Source of the DNA: Candidatus Omnitrophota bacterium
GTDB taxonomy: Bacteria; Omnitrophota; Gorgyraeia; 2-02-FULL-51-18
Assembly (NCBI GenBank): GCA_016197155.1
Contig: JACPWF010000014.1
Location: 1 to 38,849, forward strand
Length of the DNA: 38,849 nucleotides
Direction: 5' to 3'
Shown one piece after another: positions 1 through 16,316 of this stretch (position 1 is its first letter; each line of letters opens with the position of its first letter). A program made the translations under genes and the position numbers. Below the pieces are notes generated by a model. The model did no database searches and was not told the origin of the DNA. It worked only from the letters and a program-made list of their open reading frames with translations.

Positions 1-129
1 GAAGGTCAGGGCAGGGCCAGCCGTTTGGGGGAAGAGTATTTGCAGGAGAAGGAGGCGCTTCAGATTCGCGAGGAGATTTTTTCTCTATTAAGACAGATCA
101 ACAGCCTGATCAACTATCTAAGGCCCTAG
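1..129 (+). CDS. C-terminal fragment of a small helical protein (5' end outside window)
   Basis: Frame 1 is open from the first base and ends with TAG at 127-129, giving 42 residues of a C-terminus. The segment is charged and amphipathic (REEIFSLLRQINSLINYL near the end) and looks like the last helix of a four-helix-bundle protein of the 23S rRNA intervening-sequence type. That assignment is only a guess from style, because the rest lies outside the window. The same DNA is also open in frame 3, which continues into the giant ORF, so two same-strand frames overlap here. One of them is probably an inserted gene inside the other. Confidence 0.4.
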   Translation, partial: EGQGRASRLGEEYLQEKEALQIREEIFSLLRQINSLINYLRP

Positions 130-3100
130 ATTTACCACTTTTCCACCATCCACGACCCACCATCCACGATCCCCACACCGCAGTCCTCATCGCGGGAGGC
201 TACCACACGCCTAATCTAAAATATTTACTCAAACAAAAAAACATCTCCTACATCGTCCTCACCCCGCAGATCCTGAACGAAACAAACCAAAGACGGTACG
301 AGACCCTTCTTTTGAATCAAAAGTTATCCGGCCAACCGCTTCCCTCGGCGCCGTTTGAACCAATGTCTCACACCATCGCTCTCGAGCAAGTCCTTGCCAG
401 CCGTCTCTCTAACCCCAACCCCGAGGCAAGGCTGGAGATGTTGGGTGAGTTGGGGGCGAGGATGGCAGTAGATGACACTCAAATTCAAAACTGGCCGCCG
501 GCTAAAATTCGGGGACTTTTAGCGAAGGAAATCGAGGCCCTTCCGTGGGATCAGATTTGTGTGCTTGATGAGAATCAAATGCTTGCGCTTCAGAACCGAG
601 CGAAGAAATTAAACGTTCATCTCCGAAGCTCCGCCCCGCAGACGGATCGGTTGCCAGCCGACCTTGACACAATCGACGCGCGGATGGCGGGGGAAAAGAC
701 AGGAGTCGGAAGTTGGAACGAATCGTTATTTATGCGAATGATGTTTATGGGTCTCACGCCAATCGCTAATTTTCACCCAGGCCACCAGCAAGATGGCGCC
801 AATGGCGCTTATGATGTACAGAAGAGTCAGGTTGTCCAAAAGAAGCCTCCTTATTTTTCAATCATAATGGCGCTGGCAAAAAAAATCAGACACGCGGCGA
901 TTCCGACCGAAAACCTTCTGATATCAAACGGCACACCCGACGCAAAATTGGGTACCACGAGCGTCGCAAAGAGGATCGATCCGACGTTCGTCAACACCTT
1001 GCTTCCGCTGGCGCGCCTCTTATCGGATATCATAGGCGCGATTCTAACATACCCCTCCATGGCTGTCAATTCGCTCTCCGCCGCGCCTGCCCGCCAACGC
1101 CCTAGTGGCGGGCGGCTGGCGGGGGAAGGGACAGAAGCCAGTAGACAGGAGACAGTAGTCAGCGAAGGGCAAGGAAATCCCAGCGCCTCGCGGTTGGCGA
1201 TTTTAGAACCGAATTACTTGGTTTTTGTTGCTTCGAGTTTGAGGAGTCTTTTTTCGAGGGAGGGGACGGCCACGCGGACGGCGTCTTCAAGCGCGGTCAG
1301 GCGGTTTTTGACTTCGATCATTTCCTCTTTAACCGTCATCATGTCTTCGTGGACTGTGGTGACCACTTCGGCGACGGTTCTAAACTCGCCCTTCAAATCT
1401 TCGACTAATGCCGCAACCTGGCCGGCGGTAAACTCTTTCTTAAAATCCATTTCCTTTCCTCCTGCTCGGGGAAGTCTAACAGGAGATAGCTTTGCTGTCA
1501 AGCCGTTCGCGCAAGCAACCGCCGCGCCTACCTCCGCCACTACAACTCTGGCGGACAGGCGCCAACTCCCTAGTGGCGGGCTTGCCTCCGCCACTATAGC
1601 TCCGGTCACCGTTTCACACGGAGATTCTTCGGCGCCAGAGTGCGCGGCGCCTCGGAATGACGGGCGGGGAGCGTGGATGGCGTATTTCACGCCCGAGCAG
1701 AGATTGGAAGACGCCTTGAAAAGAATCGATGCAGCCCACGCCGGAAAGCTTCTTACCTCATTTCATGTTGGTCAGATAGCAGATGGTCTTGCCATGAGTC
1801 AACAAAGAAATGGTTTGTTATCACCGGCGCCGGATATTTCAGAAATGCTCGAACAGCACATGGCTAAGTCGTTGGATGGTCCCAATAAAAACATGGAGGA
1901 GTTTTTATCGTTATATCACCAAAATAAGGAAGGGGGAAATGACCTTCGAAAGCAGTTGGAAAGCGATGGGTCTACTTTTCTCTTGAATTTTCCCAGACCC
2001 CAAGGGGGCTGGGCGGCTTATCCGTGTGTATTTAACAAAGCGGGTTTCGCAAGCTTTGTCGCCGATCTAACAGAAAAGAATTCGGTGTTAGCCAGGATAT
2101 TTTTAATCGCTGTTTCCGAGAATCTACAGAAGACAGTAGTCAGCGAAGGGCGAGGAAATCCCAGCGCCTCGAGGCTCGCGGTGAGCGTAGGGACTGTTGA
2201 AGACACAGGGCCTTTGAACTTATTTGCTACTCAACAAAAAGCCGCCGCGCTTGTGAGAGAGATTAACGAACGATTGGCTAGGAGTAGCATAGACTCCGAG
2301 ACTGTGCGGGCAGAGACGGACGGTTTTCTGAATGAAAAGGTGCGGGTATCTGGTTCCGTAGATAGAAGCGCCTGGGTTAGTTTTTTTTCTGGTATTGGAG
2401 ATCTTTCCGATGGCTCCCAAGCGCGGGTATTTTTGGAGGCCCTTTTATCAGCGCTTATTTCCACAGAAGAGACAACTGGCCAGGATGATGTGCCAGTAAC
2501 GGCCGATAGAATAAATCAGTGGCTGATCACAAATGGGATTCAAGCCGAATCGACAAAGGCGGAGGTGGATAGTGATTATGGCAGAATTCGAATCGTTCAT
2601 TTTTTTCCCAGAGGCGGGCCGTTCACAATCCTTATTCAAGGTTTAGCGGACAGCCCGCGCGCCAGAGCTTTTCTCCGGACAGCGCTTTTGGCTCTTGTTA
2701 ATATGGATCGTTCCGTTGCGCCTGCCCGCCAACGCATTAGTGGCGGGTCTGCCTCCGCCACTACAGCTCCGGTCACCGTTTCAAACGGAGATCCTTCGGC
2801 GCCAGAGATCGCGGCGCCTCGGACTGACGGGCGGGGTGCGCGGATGGCGGACGCACCGGAAGATTACGGCGAAGTTCACTCTTGGAAAGAGGCTTTTGAT
2901 AAAGCGCGTGAGCTTTTAAATAGCAAAGCGTTGGGAGCGGTGGCCACCGTGTCTTTATCAGAATATCGATCAGGGCGATATTTTGCAGCTATTTTGGATG
3001 TACCTGATTATAAGAATAGGGGCATCGATGAACTTGGCTATTTGAATCAACTTGCTGATATTTCACCCTCTCTATACGCGGGAAATGAGAGATTTCGTTT

Positions 3101-4442
3101 GATTTATAGAAGTATTTCGGTTGAGGGATACGGGGAAATAAAAACTTTGGTCATTGTCTATTTAAAATCTGGAGAAATATTCCCGCAGCCCGCCGCGCGG
3201 CTCGTCGCCACAGCCACTCCCGCGCGGCTGGCCGAAAGAGTCAGAGGCGCGAGGCTTGGTTTTTCGGACGGGAGAAGGGGCAGGGGAAGGGACAGAAGAC
3301 AGACGACAGAAGACAGAAATCAGGAAAGCCTTAAAAGATCGGCGGGTCCGGCAATATTTGAAAACCGTCTGCGGACGACGGGAAGCGTGAGCGAACGGGC
3401 GAGACTGCTCGCGGAAGAGCGGGTGGGAAGCCGTAGGGGCGCGATTCATCGCGCCCCCCGGACCGGCGATGGCAGACACCGCCTGGGCGCCATAAATGGC
3501 GCCCCTACGCTGGCCAATGGATTCAAATCCCTCGAAGCGCTCTTGGGAGAAACCCCGGCCCTGGCGGCAGAGGTGGGTGTGCTGGCCGCCAATCTTGCCA
3601 GACAAACCAACACCCTCGACCACTTGATCGCCCTTTCCATTCTTCGGGATCAGGCCTCCATTCTCCGATTTGAAGAAAATGGCGACACCGTCAAGATTTA
3701 TGCCCACGCCGAATCGGGCGAAGCGCTTTTATCAACGGTTTCCATTCAAAAAACCATTCTTCGGGGTCAATCTGAACAAGAAAAGGCGATCAAGCTCTCC
3801 GACCTCGTCGGGGCCGTCCAGCAGGCTTCGGCTTTGAACGGCGCCGAACCTTACCGGCAAATGCTTGCGGCGCCAAAGAACGTATCGGTTTATCTGAACG
3901 GCTTGGAAGGCCTCCCGCCGGGCTTGAAAGAGGCGGTCCTTGAAAATATGCTCACGAACCTTGCCGCGCGTCATGAAAAGGGCACGCAGTTTCTTTTGTC
4001 GGGGGATAGGGATTTGGTCGGCCTGGCTGTTCACATTCTTCGAGAGAATGAAAGACTAAGCCGCCACCGCGATATTTTCCTTGAAGAAGGACAGGCCTTC
4101 AGCGATCCGAATGCCAACAGGGCCTACCTGGTCTTTAATAATTATTATCTTCAAAACCGGGCTTTGTTCAAAGGACAGGAAGACCGCGTTGTCGCTTTGG
4201 AAGACATTCAGGAAAGCCCCACCCAGGGAGTGGCCGGCCTCGATCCTTTCGGCCCCGCCGCGACGCTGGCCCAACTGGCCGCCCTCGACCGCGAGAAGGC
4301 GCGCCTCTTTTACACCTCCTTAACCGGCAGAACCTGGGTCCCTGGCCAATTTTTCTTCGTTCCCCGCCTCACCCAAATCAACGTGACCCAGGCCATCCGC
4401 GCCTACGAGACCACCGCCCGCATGGCCGGGCAGTCGGTTTAA
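3..4442 (+). CDS. Giant mosaic protein with in-frame repeat insertions (5' partial)
   Basis: This frame has no stop from base 3 to 4442. The first good-looking internal start is TTG at 312, but the codons before it encode protein-like sequence (VLIAGGYHTPNLKYLLKQKN at 183-242), so the gene most likely begins upstream of the window. I do not recognise a catalytic domain. Visible features are: an ARMA-like linker at about 456, 675, 1672, 2838 and 4420; three degenerate modules ending in AR-x-FL near 2090, 2420 and 2665; repeat-derived linkers at 1083-1199, 1557-1682, 2132-2180, 2720-2850 and 3180-3509; and a long well-formed C-terminal region (about 3510-4442) rich in Leu, Ala and Glu. Three small genes lie on the opposite strand inside it (726-839, 851-1033, 1214-1450). 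Giant modular proteins are known from Omnitrophota. Function unknown. The stretches opposite the nested genes may be translated filler, or the ORF may be partly non-coding. Confidence 0.6.
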   Translation, partial: RSGQGQPFGGRVFAGEGGASDSRGDFFSIKTDQQPDQLSKALDLPLFHHPRPTIHDPHTAVLIAGGYHTPNLKYLLKQKNISYIVLTPQILNETNQRRYETLLLNQKLSGQPLPSAPFEPMSHTIALEQVLASRLSNPNPEARLEMLGELGARMAVDDTQIQNWPPAKIRGLLAKEIEALPWDQICVLDENQMLALQNRAKKLNVHLRSSAPQTDRLPADLDTIDARMAGEKTGVGSWNESLFMRMMFMGLTPIANFHPGHQQDGANGAYDVQKSQVVQKKPPYFSIIMALAKKIRHAAIPTENLLISNGTPDAKLGTTSVAKRIDPTFVNTLLPLARLLSDIIGAILTYPSMAVNSLSAAPARQRPSGGRLAGEGTEASRQETVVSEGQGNPSASRLAILEPNYLVFVASSLRSLFSREGTATRTASSSAVRRFLTSIISSLTVIMSSWTVVTTSATVLNSPFKSSTNAATWPAVNSFLKSISFPPARGSLTGDSFAVKPFAQATAAPTSATTTLADRRQLPSGGLASATIAPVTVSHGDSSAPECAAPRNDGRGAWMAYFTPEQRLEDALKRIDAAHAGKLLTSFHVGQIADGLAMSQQRNGLLSPAPDISEMLEQHMAKSLDGPNKNMEEFLSLYHQNKEGGNDLRKQLESDGSTFLLNFPRPQGGWAAYPCVFNKAGFASFVADLTEKNSVLARIFLIAVSENLQKTVVSEGRGNPSASRLAVSVGTVEDTGPLNLFATQQKAAALVREINERLARSSIDSETVRAETDGFLNEKVRVSGSVDRSAWVSFFSGIGDLSDGSQARVFLEALLSALISTEETTGQDDVPVTADRINQWLITNGIQAESTKAEVDSDYGRIRIVHFFPRGGPFTILIQGLADSPRARAFLRTALLALVNMDRSVAPARQRISGGSASATTAPVTVSNGDPSAPEIAAPRTDGRGARMADAPEDYGEVHSWKEAFDKARELLNSKALGAVATVSLSEYRSGRYFAAILDVPDYKNRGIDELGYLNQLADISPSLYAGNERFRLIYRSISVEGYGEIKTLVIVYLKSGEIFPQPAARLVATATPARLAERVRGARLGFSDGRRGRGRDRRQTTEDRNQESLKRSAGPAIFENRLRTTGSVSERARLLAEERVGSRRGAIHRAPRTGDGRHRLGAINGAPTLANGFKSLEALLGETPALAAEVGVLAANLARQTNTLDHLIALSILRDQASILRFEENGDTVKIYAHAESGEALLSTVSIQKTILRGQSEQEKAIKLSDLVGAVQQASALNGAEPYRQMLAAPKNVSVYLNGLEGLPPGLKEAVLENMLTNLAARHEKGTQFLLSGDRDLVGLAVHILRENERLSRHRDIFLEEGQAFSDPNANRAYLVFNNYYLQNRALFKGQEDRVVALEDIQESPTQGVAGLDPFGPAATLAQLAALDREKARLFYTSLTGRTWVPGQFFFVPRLTQINVTQAIRAYETTARMAGQSV
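726..839 (-). CDS. Nested 37-aa single-pass membrane protein
   Basis: On the minus strand a TTG start at 839-837 is preceded by GGAGG (850-846) and opens a 37-codon frame ending TAA at 726. The product starts MDNLTLLYIISAIGAILL, has one hydrophobic segment of about 20 residues, and ends in a His/Lys-rich tail (KHHSHK). It starts 11 bases after the stop of the 60-aa gene at 851-1033, so the two look like a small operon. It lies wholly inside the plus-strand giant ORF. No function is known to me. The clean SD, membrane topology and tandem arrangement are the evidence that it is real. Confidence 0.5.
   Translation of the reverse strand: MDNLTLLYIISAIGAILLVAWVKISDWRETHKHHSHK
851..1033 (-). CDS. 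Nested 60-aa two-TM membrane protein
   Basis: A minus-strand frame of 60 codons from ATG at 1033, ending TAA at 851. An in-frame ATG at 1069 would add 12 residues, but those resemble flanking sequence rather than protein. The product has a charged N-terminus (MISDKRRASGSKVL) and two hydrophobic stretches, roughly residues 16-30 and 42-57. It resembles a common class of short bacterial proteins with the pattern 'helix, ILFATLVV, short loop, second helix, MIEK' whose role is unknown. It is followed at 839 by a 37-aa membrane protein behind a strong SD. Both lie antisense inside the giant plus-strand ORF. Confidence 0.5.
   Translation of the reverse strand: MISDKRRASGSKVLTNVGSILFATLVVPNFASGVPFDIRRFSVGIAACLIFFASAIMIEK
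1083..1199. repeat. Composite dispersed repeat block (elements A1, E1, B1)
   Basis: Three repeat pieces lie side by side. A1 contains an 8-bp perfect hairpin, GCCCGCCA (1089-1096) with TGGCGGGC (1106-1113). E1 is a purine-rich run beginning GGGGAAGGGACAGAAG at 1122, seen again at 3283. B1 (1151-1199) recurs with few changes at 2132-2180. The whole block is translated without a stop in the giant ORF and adjoins the 3' end of the nested gene at 1214-1450. Confidence 0.7.
1214..1450 (-). CDS. Nested 78-aa coiled-coil protein
   Basis: The minus strand carries a perfect AGGAGG (1463-1458) seven bases before ATG at 1450, then 78 codons to TAA at 1214. A longer antisense frame runs upstream to 1690, but the SD fixes the start at 1450. 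The protein is highly charged and predicted helical, with heptad-like spacing (VKEEMIEVKNRLTALEDAV near the centre), and it ends LLKLEATKTK. Small solo coiled-coil proteins of this kind are common in uncultured bacterial genomes and have no assigned job. The gene sits between repeat blocks at 1083-1199 and 1557-1682, like a cassette, inside the opposite-strand giant ORF. Confidence 0.6.
   Translation of the reverse strand: MDFKKEFTAGQVAALVEDLKGEFRTVAEVVTTVHEDMMTVKEEMIEVKNRLTALEDAVRVAVPSLEKRLLKLEATKTK
1557..1682. repeat. Long dispersed repeat, copy A2
   Basis: About 125 bp that match 2720-2850 closely by eye. Both copies carry TAGTGGCGGG, then GCCTCCGCCACTA, then CTCCGGTCACCGTTTCA, and end with a GACGGGCGGGG run followed by GGATGGCG. 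An inverted pair, TAGTGGCGG and CCGCCACTA, forms a hairpin. The copy is read in the same frame as the second copy of the giant ORF and ends at an ARMA-like junction (GAWMA). Confidence 0.8.
2132..2180. repeat. Dispersed repeat, copy B2
   Basis: 49 bp starting GACAGTAGTCAGCGAAGGGC, differing from 1151-1199 at only a few positions. Both copies are in the same frame of the giant ORF, giving TVVSEGRGNPSASRLA here and TVVSEGQGNPSASRLA at the first copy. Confidence 0.75.
2720..2850. repeat. Long dispersed repeat, copy A3
   Basis: Second full copy of the 1557-1682 repeat, with the same internal hairpin (TAGTGGCGGG with CCGCCACTA) and the same end next to an ARMA junction (GARMA at about 2836-2850). 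It begins with GCGCCTGCCCGCCAACGC, which is also the start of the shorter A1 copy at 1083. Confidence 0.8.
3283..3320. repeat. Purine-rich short repeat (ACAGAAGAC units), copy E2
   Basis: GGGGAAGGGACAGAAGAC at 3283-3300 repeats the piece at 1122 with one mismatch in the last few bases. It is followed by further ACAGAAGACAG units. It is translated as an Arg/Gln/Asp-rich linker inside the giant ORF. Confidence 0.55.
3432..3509. repeat. GTAGGGGC palindromic element inside coding sequence
   Basis: CGTAGGGGC (3432-3440) is mirrored by GCCCCTACG (3501-3509), with two inner palindromes: GCGCGATTCATCGCGC and GGCGCCATAAATGGCGCC. Elements of the form 'GTAGGGGC ... GCCCCTAC' are dispersed in many bacterial genomes, usually between genes. 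Here the copy lies inside the giant ORF and is translated in frame. Confidence 0.75.
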
Positions 4443-4465
4443 TTTTCATTTTTAATCAAGTCTTG

Positions 4466-4494
4466 TTGCGCCAAATCGGCGGGCATGCTATTCT
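4466..4494 (+). promoter_or_regulatory. Candidate promoter of the 77-aa membrane protein gene
   Basis: TTGCGC (4466-4471), 17-bp spacer, TATTCT (4489-4494). The start ATG at 4504 is only 9 bases after the -10 box and no SD precedes it, which fits a leaderless or near-leaderless mRNA. Confidence 0.4.
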
Positions 4495-4503
4495 GAATCG
4501 CCC

Positions 4504-4737
4504 ATGACGACACCTGAAAAATGGTACTTCAAAACCTCCGCGGTCGTGGTCGCTTTTTTGGCCGTGGGGCCGCTGGCGCTACCCCTTGTGTGGTTCAACC
4601 CGCGCTACGACAAGCGGACCAAGGCCATCGTGACGGTCGCGGCGGCCATCGCCACCTGGCTCATGGGGGCGGCGATGCTCAAGTCCTTTCAGGCGATCCT
4701 GAATTATTATCACGAGTTAAAATCGAGCATGAATTGA
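4504..4737 (+). CDS. Small two-TM membrane protein (77 aa)
   Basis: A 77-residue protein starting MTTPEKWYFKT with two hydrophobic helices, about residues 11-30 and 42-62, joined by a charged loop (NPRYDKRTK). The pattern 'WYF..., GPLALPLVWFNPRY, charged loop, second helix' is one I recognise as a recurring small bacterial membrane protein, sometimes behind a zinc ribbon, but I know no function. There is no zinc ribbon here. The C-terminus (YYHELKSSMN) is polar. It stands alone between the giant ORF and the next promoter, and no SD is visible before the ATG. Confidence 0.75.
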   Translation: MTTPEKWYFKTSAVVVAFLAVGPLALPLVWFNPRYDKRTKAIVTVAAAIATWLMGAAMLKSFQAILNYYHELKSSMN

Positions 4738-4754
4738 CGGGGCTTGACAAGCCA

Positions 4755-4782
4755 TTGACTTTCGCGGAAAGACTGGTATAAT
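4755..4782 (+). promoter_or_regulatory. Promoter upstream of the secreted Ala/Pro-rich protein
   Basis: TTGACT (4755-4760), 16-bp spacer, TATAAT (4777-4782). A second TTGACA lies at 4744 but is too far from the -10 box. The AGGGGG SD follows at 4802. Confidence 0.65.
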
Positions 4783-4813
4783 TTTCTGAAAATTCACTTA
4801 AAGGGGGCTGAAC

Positions 4814-5326
4814 ATGAAAAGATTCTCGTTTTTGGTGGCAATCTCTCTTTTAATCCCGGCGGCTTTGTGGGCCGAGGAAACAGCGGCTCCCGCGGCTTCG
4901 TCCTCGGACACGGCCTCGAGCGCCCCGGCGGCGGCCCCGGCCTTGACTGAAACGGCTCCGGCGCCCGTGTCACCCGCTCCGGCGGCAGAGGCCACAACGG
5001 CCCCCGCGGCGGATCCGGCAACGGAAGTCAAGCCGGCGAGCGAGACGGCCCCAGCCGAGCCCGCCAAACCGGCGGCTGAAAATCTCGAGTTTGTCTCCGG
5101 CGAGATCAGCGCCGTCGACGAGGCCAACAAATCCATCACCGTCAAACTCTACGGCGAAACCGAAAACGCCTCCAAAGAAAAAACCCTGTCGGTCAAGCTT
5201 GACACCACGACCGATATCACCGACGGCGAGAAAGACCGCGATCTCAAATCCCTGACCGCGGGTACCGAGGTGGATGTCGAGTACGACCCCGCCACCAACA
5301 AGGCCACGTATATTTTCGTTTATTAA
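4814..5326 (+). CDS. Secreted Ala/Pro/Glu-rich protein with small beta-type C-terminal domain
   Basis: 170 residues. Residues 1-20 form a signal peptide (MKRFSFLVAISLLIPAALWA). Residues 21-92 are a low-complexity Ala/Pro/Glu/Thr linker, probably disordered. Residues 93-170 form a compact domain (starting FVSGEISAVDEANKSITVKL) resembling DUF5666-like small beta barrels. The AGGGGG SD eight bases before ATG 4814 and a good promoter at 4755 support expression as its own unit. Likely periplasmic or envelope-attached by its linker. The biochemical role is unknown, and the DUF5666 similarity is by pattern only. Confidence 0.75.
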   Translation: MKRFSFLVAISLLIPAALWAEETAAPAASSSDTASSAPAAAPALTETAPAPVSPAPAAEATTAPAADPATEVKPASETAPAEPAKPAAENLEFVSGEISAVDEANKSITVKLYGETENASKEKTLSVKLDTTTDITDGEKDRDLKSLTAGTEVDVEYDPATNKATYIFVY

Positions 5327-5334
5327 GTGAGCAC

Positions 5335-5415
5335 CGGACTTGCGCGACCGTTAGGGAGCGCCAAGTCCGCCGTGCGAACTTATCCTGAGGAAGCGCCCAA
5401 GCGCTGACGAAGGAT
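5335..5415. repeat. Intergenic hairpin-rich repeat reaching into the tilS leader
   Basis: Two hairpins: CGGACTTG (5335-5342) with CAAGTCCG (5362-5369), and ATCCT (5382-5386) with AGGAT (5411-5415) enclosing AGCGC/GCGCT. The TTATCCTGAGGA...GAAGGAT style resembles dispersed repeats in many bacterial genomes. Its right arm supplies the AAGGA that acts as SD for tilS at 5419. Confidence 0.5.
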
Positions 5416-5418
5416 CCG

Positions 5419-6171
5419 ATGGTTCACGCCAAGCCGCTTCTCAACAGCGTTTCCAAAACGAACCGCCGTCACTCACTGATCCAAAAGGGTGACGGCGTTG
5501 TTGTTGGCTTATCGGGCGGGCCGGATTCGACGGCCCTGGCCCTAATCCTTTCTCTTTTTGCCCGTAAATACCGCCTGCGGCTTTACGCGGCTCATCTGAA
5601 CCACGGTCTTCAGGAAGAGGCCGCGAGCCACGAGATTCTGTCCAAAAAGCTCGCGCAAAGTCTGGGGTTTCCGTTCCATTCCAAAAAACTCAATATCCGC
5701 CGCCTGGCCAAAGAGCGGCGCCGTTCGATCGAGGAAACGGGCCGGGATGAGCGTTACCGCTTCTTCGCCGAGGTCGCGCGCAGGACGCGCGCCAAAAAAA
5801 TCGCGACGGCCCATACGCTCGACGACCAGGCCGAAACGGTGCTTTTGCGCATCCTGAGGGGAACCGGCCTGCGGGGCCTGGCCGGCATTCCGGTCAAGAG
5901 AAGGCACGGCCGCCGCCTCATGGTCATCCGCCCATTTCTGGAAACCCCCAAAAAAACCATTTTGGACTTTCTTCAAAAAAATAAAATCCCCTTCGCGAAG
6001 GACCCCACCAACCGGAACCTGGGCTTCGCGCGCAACCGCGTGCGGCATTGGCTCATCCCGCAAATCGAGCGCCGCTTCGGCCGGAACATCCGCCGGACGC
6101 TGGTGAGGCTGGCCGAGTCGGCCGCTTCCGGATCCCCTGCGCCGGGGACGGGTCGTCCGTCGGCGGCTTGA
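5419..6171 (+). CDS. tilS: tRNA(Ile)-lysidine synthase
   Basis: TilS attaches lysine to C34 of tRNA-Ile(CAU) using ATP, which switches codon reading from AUG to AUA. The PP-loop motif SGGPDS is at residues 32-37. Further family signatures are HLNHGL (about 60-65), the ATAHTLDDQAET segment (about 130-140) and LRGTGLRGLAGI (about 146-157), followed by DPTNRN and RNRVRHWLIPQI. The 250-aa length covers the N-terminal catalytic domain only, so the C-terminal tRNA-binding domains of the long E. coli form are absent, as in many short TilS proteins. ATG 5419 has AAGGA five bases upstream. The last ~15 residues (Gly/Ser/Pro-rich) look like a loose tail. Confidence 0.93.
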   Translation: MVHAKPLLNSVSKTNRRHSLIQKGDGVVVGLSGGPDSTALALILSLFARKYRLRLYAAHLNHGLQEEAASHEILSKKLAQSLGFPFHSKKLNIRRLAKERRRSIEETGRDERYRFFAEVARRTRAKKIATAHTLDDQAETVLLRILRGTGLRGLAGIPVKRRHGRRLMVIRPFLETPKKTILDFLQKNKIPFAKDPTNRNLGFARNRVRHWLIPQIERRFGRNIRRTLVRLAESAASGSPAPGTGRPSAA

Positions 6172-15062: not shown

Positions 15063-16316
15063 ATGAATAAAAAAGCCGCGCTCGGAACGGTGTTTTTGGT
15101 GGTGCTCGTGGACCTCATGGGCTTCGGGATCGTCCTGCCGCTCATTCCGTTTTACGCGTCAAAATTTAACGCCTCTCCCGTGGCGATCGGATTTCTTTAC
15201 AGCATTTATTCATTCGCCCAGCTTGTCTTTTCCCCGCTTTGGGGAGGGTTTTCCGACAAAATCGGCCGCCGTCCGATCATGCTTCTCAGCACGTTCGGGG
15301 CGGTCCTGGCCTATATTTTATTCGGGCTTGCCCAGTCGCTCGGCGTTCTTTTTCTGTCGCGCCTGGTCGCGGGCATCATGGGAGGAAATATCTCAACGGC
15401 CCAGGCCTATGTCGCGGACGTGACGACGCATGACGAGCGGGCCAAGGGGATGGGCCTGATCGGCGCGGCGTTCGGAATCGGGTTCGTCGTGGGGCCGGCC
15501 ATTTCGACGATTCTCATCCATCCGGCTTTTCATCAATTTCTTCAACGGCTAACCGGCCCGGCGCTGGCGGCGGTCCTGTCGGAGAATAAATACGAAATTC
15601 CGGGGTTTTTCGCCGCGGGGCTGTCTTTTCTGAGTTTCCTTTTGGTTTGGTTCAAACTGCCCGAGACCGTCCAGGCGTCCCCGTCCGGCGCCGCGGCGGG
15701 CGGGGATGCGGAACGCATCGAAAAAGTGAGCCTATTCAGCGGCCGGTTTTGGCGGAGGCTTTCGGAAGAGGGAAACGCGGTTCTGTCCCTGCTTTTACTG
15801 AGCATCTTTCTTTTGGCGCTGGGGCAGTCAAGCCTCTACAGCGGGTTTCCTCTTTTTTGCAAGACCCGGCTCCTTCTCTCGGCCGAAAAAGTCGGGATGC
15901 AATTTGTCTACATGGGTCTTTTGACCGCGCTTGTCCAGGGCGGCCTGATCCGGATTCTCGTAAAAAAATACAGCGAGGAGCGCCTTTTTTTGGTCGGCAG
16001 TATTTTGATGGTTTTGGGCCTCGGGCTCATCCCGTTCGCGCCCTCCGAAAAAATATTGACGCTGTATCTGTCGGTGATGGCGATCGGCGTCAGCCTCAAC
16101 GGCCCGACGCTGACGAGTCTCATTTCCAAAAAAGCCGATCCCCTAAAAGTCGGCGCGATGATGGGAAGCTCCCAGGGACTGGCGGCGCTGGGGCGCGTGA
16201 TCGGGCCGGCCTGGGGAGGATTTCTGTATGGCATTTCATTCAAATTGCCATTCATCCTGACCGCCGCGGTCGTTTCCACAAGCATTCTCATCGGGATCCG
16301 CCTGCAAGATGGGTAG
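15063..16316 (+). CDS. MFS transporter, TetA-like drug exporter family
   Basis: 417 residues with 12 predicted membrane helices. The N-terminal half shows the TetA-type pattern: VLVDLMGFGIVLPLIPFY in TM1, then LFSPLWGGFSDKIGRRPIML-style motif A (here SPLWGGFSDKIGRRPIML) between TM2 and TM3, and SRLVAGIMGGNISTAQAYVA (motif B and TM4-5). A charged central loop lies at about 210-235. The substrate cannot be told from sequence. It is placed between the helicase and the HEAT protein with an 8-base overlap into the latter, so it may be co-transcribed with the respiratory genes. Confidence 0.88.
   Translation: MNKKAALGTVFLVVLVDLMGFGIVLPLIPFYASKFNASPVAIGFLYSIYSFAQLVFSPLWGGFSDKIGRRPIMLLSTFGAVLAYILFGLAQSLGVLFLSRLVAGIMGGNISTAQAYVADVTTHDERAKGMGLIGAAFGIGFVVGPAISTILIHPAFHQFLQRLTGPALAAVLSENKYEIPGFFAAGLSFLSFLLVWFKLPETVQASPSGAAAGGDAERIEKVSLFSGRFWRRLSEEGNAVLSLLLLSIFLLALGQSSLYSGFPLFCKTRLLLSAEKVGMQFVYMGLLTALVQGGLIRILVKKYSEERLFLVGSILMVLGLGLIPFAPSEKILTLYLSVMAIGVSLNGPTLTSLISKKADPLKVGAMMGSSQGLAALGRVIGPAWGGFLYGISFKLPFILTAAVVSTSILIGIRLQDG

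Follow-up and report, generated by a model that had tools for sequence, protein, structure and literature searches.

The window (the whole stretch of DNA analysed, 38,849 nucleotides; contig C9:1-38849 of genome G000) belongs to a 1.43-Mb Omnitrophota assembly. Its start coincides with a contig end, and a reading frame of 1,479 codons without a stop (3..4442, + strand) runs off that end. In a six-frame stop count, the five other frames over the same DNA contained 48, 52, 56, 63, and 64 stops. The claim of an earlier note that a frame of more than 4.4 kb stays open across repeats and three opposite-strand genes was thus confirmed (0 stops vs. 48-64). The frame is the 3' tail of a truncated giant, polyprotein-like Omnitrophota gene, and a Pfam search of 3..4442 returned zero matches. 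The following features were identified in it.

3..4442, +: 3' part of a giant gene, stop-free over 1,479 codons; 5' end lost at the contig end
180..318, +: conserved N-terminal module of Omnitrophota giants, its C-terminal part (AVLIAGGYHTPNLK...ETNQRRYETLLL)
279..466, +: near-identity to the end of contig C34 (1 mismatch in 188), stopping at the GARMA motif
453..467, +: GARMA segment-boundary motif
675..689, +: DARMA segment-boundary motif
726..839, -: nested gene 2, small membrane protein; TTG start after AAGGAGG
851..1033, -: nested gene 1, 60-aa small membrane protein; ATG 7 nt past the -10 box
1041..1069, -: promoter-like TTGACA-17-TAGAAT of the membrane-protein operon, near-consensus
1077..1200 (about), +: repeat-derived stretch with copies in giant C34
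1107..1121, +: GGRLA motif, within the repeat copy
1185..1199, +: ASRLA motif, within the repeat copy
1214..1450, -: nested gene 3, 78-aa coiled-coil protein; AGGAGG at 1463-1458, ATG at 1450
1473..1501, -: promoter-like TTGACA-17-TAGACT of the coiled-coil gene, near-consensus
1545..1682, +: repeat-derived stretch
1668..1682, +: GAWMA motif variant, end of the repeat copy
1683..2120, +: sense segment A, no known domain
2126..2180, +: repeat-derived stretch
2181..2710, +: sense segment B, no known domain
2712..2849, +: repeat-derived stretch
2835..2849, +: GARMA motif, end of the repeat copy
2850..3185, +: sense segment C, no known domain
3186..3530, +: repeat-derived stretch in which GTAGGGGCGC...GCGCCCCTAC form inverted arms (about 3432-3509)
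3531..4412, +: C-terminal segment, distantly related to giant frames of two genomes from the same family
4413..4427, +: TARMA motif, just N-terminal of the AGQSV C-terminus

Nested genes and repeat-derived stretches of the window

All three small opposite-strand genes described earlier (726-839, 851-1033, and 1214-1450) were recovered, and judged by their sequence they look real. The genes at 851-1033 and 726-839 form one small membrane-protein operon. Because the ATG of 851..1033 lies only 7 nt past the -10 box, this gene is possibly leaderless. The coiled-coil and membrane proteins gave weak matches only, and no function, in searches of NCBIfam and PHROGs, and no recognisable toxin-antitoxin pair was found in the window. 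A further, longer antisense ORF (3162-3707) was without support as a gene and resembles a shadow of the C-terminal domain.

At least five repeat-derived stretches were present within the frame, as the earlier note had stated. Their copies were mostly pairwise in the same frame, and the pair at 1118 and 3279, 2161 bases apart, was out of phase. Palindromic elements of Rickettsia are repeats inserted in frame in protein-coding genes, and the same kind of filler had been suggested here. The likeness held insofar as repeats do lie in frame; in contrast to the rickettsial elements, which are repeats, the main inserts are genes, complete, antisense, and furnished with their own promoters. The rickettsial elements also occur in many genes and many copies and are palindromic, whereas here the copies were few, giants C9 and C34 holding the longer of them, and inverted arms were seen in one stretch only.

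The 188 bases common to two giant genes (279-466 of the window and the end of C34) carry a single mismatch and extend up to GARMA. This identity may mark an exchange at segment boundaries or an ambiguity in the assembly.

Giant genes and the GAR(L/M)A motif

The earlier note had linked the open frame to giant proteins, and this link was borne out by six further giant frames in the same genome (1,397-6,134 aa). The longest, of 18.4 kb, is likewise cut. Together with the window frame they amount to 62.7 kb, about 4% of the assembly. Giant ORFs of over 20 kb are already known from Omnitrophota (PMC10066038), and giant genes are also discussed in PMC12057145. Of the window ORF, which is cut by the contig end, 4.4 kb are present. 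The giants described in PMC10066038 resemble those found here in belonging to the same phylum, in being very long and poorly conserved, and in having few annotated domains.

The giants are strings of unrelated segments, including starch synthase, GH15, phosphoglucose isomerase, fructose bisphosphatase, GGDEF, class II aldolase, PIG-L, and histidine-kinase ATPase domains, among others. Those with an intact 5' end start with a signal-like segment and the conserved N-terminal module. Relatives of this module were from Omnitrophota in 80 of 80 cases among the matches listed, two of them in genomes of the same family as the window genome. The module (L041:25-1680, alignment A4) contains a GG(F/Y)H motif and D, H, and E residues that are invariant; short proteins of this kind, about 500-620 aa long, exist as well. 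That it is a TraB/ChaN-like enzyme which might cut the boundary motif is no more than a lead; its structural model was good (pLDDT of 85), but a fold search with the model gave no significant match, ChaN being matched only at an E-value of 1.7.

That essential enzymes reside solely inside giants was ruled out for phosphoglucose isomerase, of which the window genome and genome G011 each have another copy in a smaller ORF. In G011, the phosphoglucose isomerase domain of a giant (L068:9695-19129, aa about 2080-2620) lacks profile positions 152-197, in frame, and the other copy lies in a frame of 583 aa. By sequence, enzymes carried in giants can be degenerate second copies. Two long open stretches at G000:C16:88807-104536 are in different frames and share about 200 bases, and the N-terminal module is in the upstream one; they may represent a single giant gene split by a frameshift, or else two genes.

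The segments of giant genes are set apart by a sharp [GA]AR[LM]A motif, whose density was 1.81 per 1,000 aa in giants and 0.26 in other ORFs of the same loci, a sevenfold difference. Since the underlying codon combinations are many (62 distinct 15-mers at 73 sites), the motif is conserved as protein, and an origin from repeat DNA was ruled out. The available parts of the papers on Omnitrophota giant ORFs (PMC10066038, PMC12057145) do not mention it. It is possibly a cleavage or processing site. Giants of many genomes end in C-terminal tails of small residues (QSV, QAA, SAA, RAA), often after AR(L/M)A. All six nested modules of the window genome lie each within one motif-delimited interval, a placement that lends slight support to the mechanism proposed below.

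Antisense nesting across Omnitrophota

Comparison with related genomes, which the earlier note had proposed, showed that antisense nesting recurs phylum-wide and includes toxin-antitoxin operons. Homologues of the coiled-coil gene in 147 relatives were antisense within long open frames in 5 of 5 cases, and a profile search found the family in 43 of 384 genomes. At 23 of 30 loci the gene lay antisense inside a frame of at least 442 aa, which usually spanned the whole locus; surrounding frames were open through entire 20-kb loci and, in longer contexts, reached 6,666 aa at a GC content of 0.39. The register of the giant frame was identical in every nested case. A promoter-like site (at least 9 of 12 positions, within 75 bases) preceded 16 of the 23 nested coil genes, compared with 1.6 in shuffles. 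Many of these sites had TTGACA exactly 17 bases from the -10 box, and some ended 7-10 bases before the ATG. At L199 (G197:C162, about 15100-15850), three coiled-coil genes stand in tandem, antisense in one giant frame.

A survey of the antisense ORFs of 89 giant frames, in which ORFs better conserved antisense than sense were retained, yielded seven clusters: coil, membrane protein, DUF433, DUF5615, DUF2283, DUF4258, and RelE/ParE-like. The coil cluster is inflated by 20 loci picked for this gene; the other six are not. When 413 ordinary genes were put through the same procedure, two shadow clusters emerged, traceable to three related loci. Pfam searches of the window genome confirmed HicB and DUF433 (both C37) and DUF2283 (C7), with DUF4258 just under the cut-off; elsewhere they confirmed DUF5615, DUF433, AF2212-like, and ParE_like, and one RelE-like ORF had no Pfam match. 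A codon-usage classifier, too weak for the purpose, did not show gene-like antisense ORFs to be in overall excess in giants.

For DUF433 and HicB, nesting was defined as an antisense position in a frame of at least 350 aa, and loci were sampled by family and not by giant gene. Among best-match loci, which are not a random draw, 19 of 30 DUF433 genes and 12 of 30 HicB genes were nested antisense. A HicA-like gene, recognised by sequence pattern, adjoined the nested HicB on the same strand in all 12 cases. DUF433 and DUF5615 formed a Pfam-supported pair in L187, and the partner was seen by pattern at 5 of the 19 nested DUF433 loci. Several different antisense toxin-antitoxin-like genes (DUF433, DUF5615, AF2212-like, and others) share a single giant frame at L187 (G404:C78, about 4250-5450 and elsewhere). 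Taken together, coil, DUF433, and HicB genes were antisense-nested at 54 of 90 best-match loci, against 0 of 30 for cold-shock genes of similar size. Nesting of that extent in same-strand alternative frames was found for 0 of 120 genes (coil, DUF433, HicB, and cold-shock). Each nested family had its own preferred register.

The arrangement is that of antisense overlapping genes: a small gene lies wholly within a longer open frame of the opposite strand, and the nested frames are conserved protein families. As with laoB of Escherichia coli (PMC5810103), a small protein gene runs antisense in a longer frame. However, laoB is a new gene arisen by overprinting in one strain, whereas old families and whole operons are nested here, phylum-wide.

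Maintenance of the open frame and proposed explanation

The earlier note had left open whether selection keeps the frame free of stops or the inserted elements themselves are stop-poor; both turned out to contribute. Two of the antisense registers contain fewer stops than the same-strand alternative frames do. The stop counts, proposed for repeat copies and run on gene copies, showed that coil genes are stop-poor in register 2 even when free (0.56 stops per 100 codons). In the registers used by nested copies, free DUF433 copies had 4.09 stops per 100 codons and nested ones 0.37, and free HicB copies 3.40 and nested ones 1.06, the residual stops stemming from copies nested in another register. 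Because free DUF433 and HicB genes have 3-4 stops per 100 codons in registers that are nearly clean in nested ones, selection is needed too. In the 23 nested coil genes, synonymous reshuffling predicted 17.9 stops and 0 were seen; His and Gln codons were preceded by C in 39 of 41 cases and by T never. Nesting is defined by openness, so that stop absence is partly circular as evidence; the frequency, extent, strand, and register of nesting are stronger. Selection thus probably keeps the giant frame open, aided by stop-poor antisense registers.

We consider it fairly probable that the locus represents a giant polyprotein-like gene with autonomous antisense units between its segments, read through in translation and stabilised by toxin-antitoxin (TA) functions. 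The units would be small transcription units of their own: in the window, the coiled-coil gene and the two-gene membrane-protein operon; in other giants of this and other genomes, HicAB, DUF433-DUF5615, and DUF2283-DUF4258 operons and RelE/ParE-like toxin genes. Ribosomes would translate the giant frame straight through them, in which case a stop would sever everything downstream, and nested genes would be retained only if their codon choice put no stop into the giant frame. Filler would be tolerated because the segments, set apart by GAR(L/M)A and perhaps cut there, are independent.

The stabilising role is suggested by analogy. In the Vibrio cholerae superintegron, scattered TA cassettes are reported to stabilise the array (PMC11551772), and here too TA units are scattered through a large array. 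Unlike the superintegron cassettes, which are separate genes captured by an integrase (PMC11551772), the units here lie antisense within one reading frame. Integron cassette arrays are further marked by an integrase and by conserved attC recombination sites between the cassettes. By analogy with the superintegron we infer that TA operons may guard giant genes against deletion, acting as addiction modules that punish loss of a repeat-rich giant gene. In its strongest form, which we hold tentatively and with less than even confidence, giants would be one-frame arrays guarded by antisense TA operons, partial loss would remove the antitoxin and kill the cell, the frame would have evolved for read-through, and the whole would be its own kind of gene architecture.

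Giants might instead have arisen by fusion of co-oriented neighbours after stop loss, antisense genes between them being merely enclosed and functionless for the giant. Their make-up of unrelated domains, some of which duplicate normal enzymes, would fit, as would the outcome of the empty-site search, which found none among the 89 giant frames. Plain enclosure, however, predicts a broad sample of small genes, and TA and coil genes are strongly over-represented relative to an ordinary small gene (54/90 vs. 0/30), which makes this account rather unlikely. A neutral load, in which stop-poor elements settle without function in dispensable linkers and only frame-keepers survive, is consistent with the near absence of stops in register 2 of un-nested coil genes and with the accompanying repeat-derived stretches. 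We regard it as unlikely, since free DUF433 and HicB copies carry stops in the registers concerned, and since intergenic space should take up such elements at least equally well, yet about half of the sampled TA loci lie in long frames. Transcriptional interference, with the antisense units regulating the giant gene or the giant transcript silencing the TA units, would agree with the antisense orientation of 54 of 54 nested genes and with the strong promoter-like sites; but a strand bias is expected anyway, same-strand alternative frames being richer in stops, and the nested families are unlike in kind, so that we give this possibility little credence. An assembly or annotation artefact is extremely improbable: the window does start at a contig end whose sequence is common to a second contig, but the same architecture is present in dozens of other genomes.

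Giant ORFs are known in Omnitrophota, and antisense TA operons nested in them appear to be new; nested antisense operons are not mentioned in the available parts of PMC10066038 and PMC12057145, within a literature set with few subscription papers and no bioRxiv preprints. If the proposed architecture, a giant frame read through antisense units that stabilise it, is correct, complete antisense operons lie inside coding frames phylum-wide, and annotation that retains only the longest ORF would miss them. They would also provide a natural double-coding set for measuring selection on both strands. The giant proteins of Omnitrophota would be built of segments, possibly processed at a short motif, and the persistence of repeat-rich genes of 10-20 kb and longer in small genomes would be explained.
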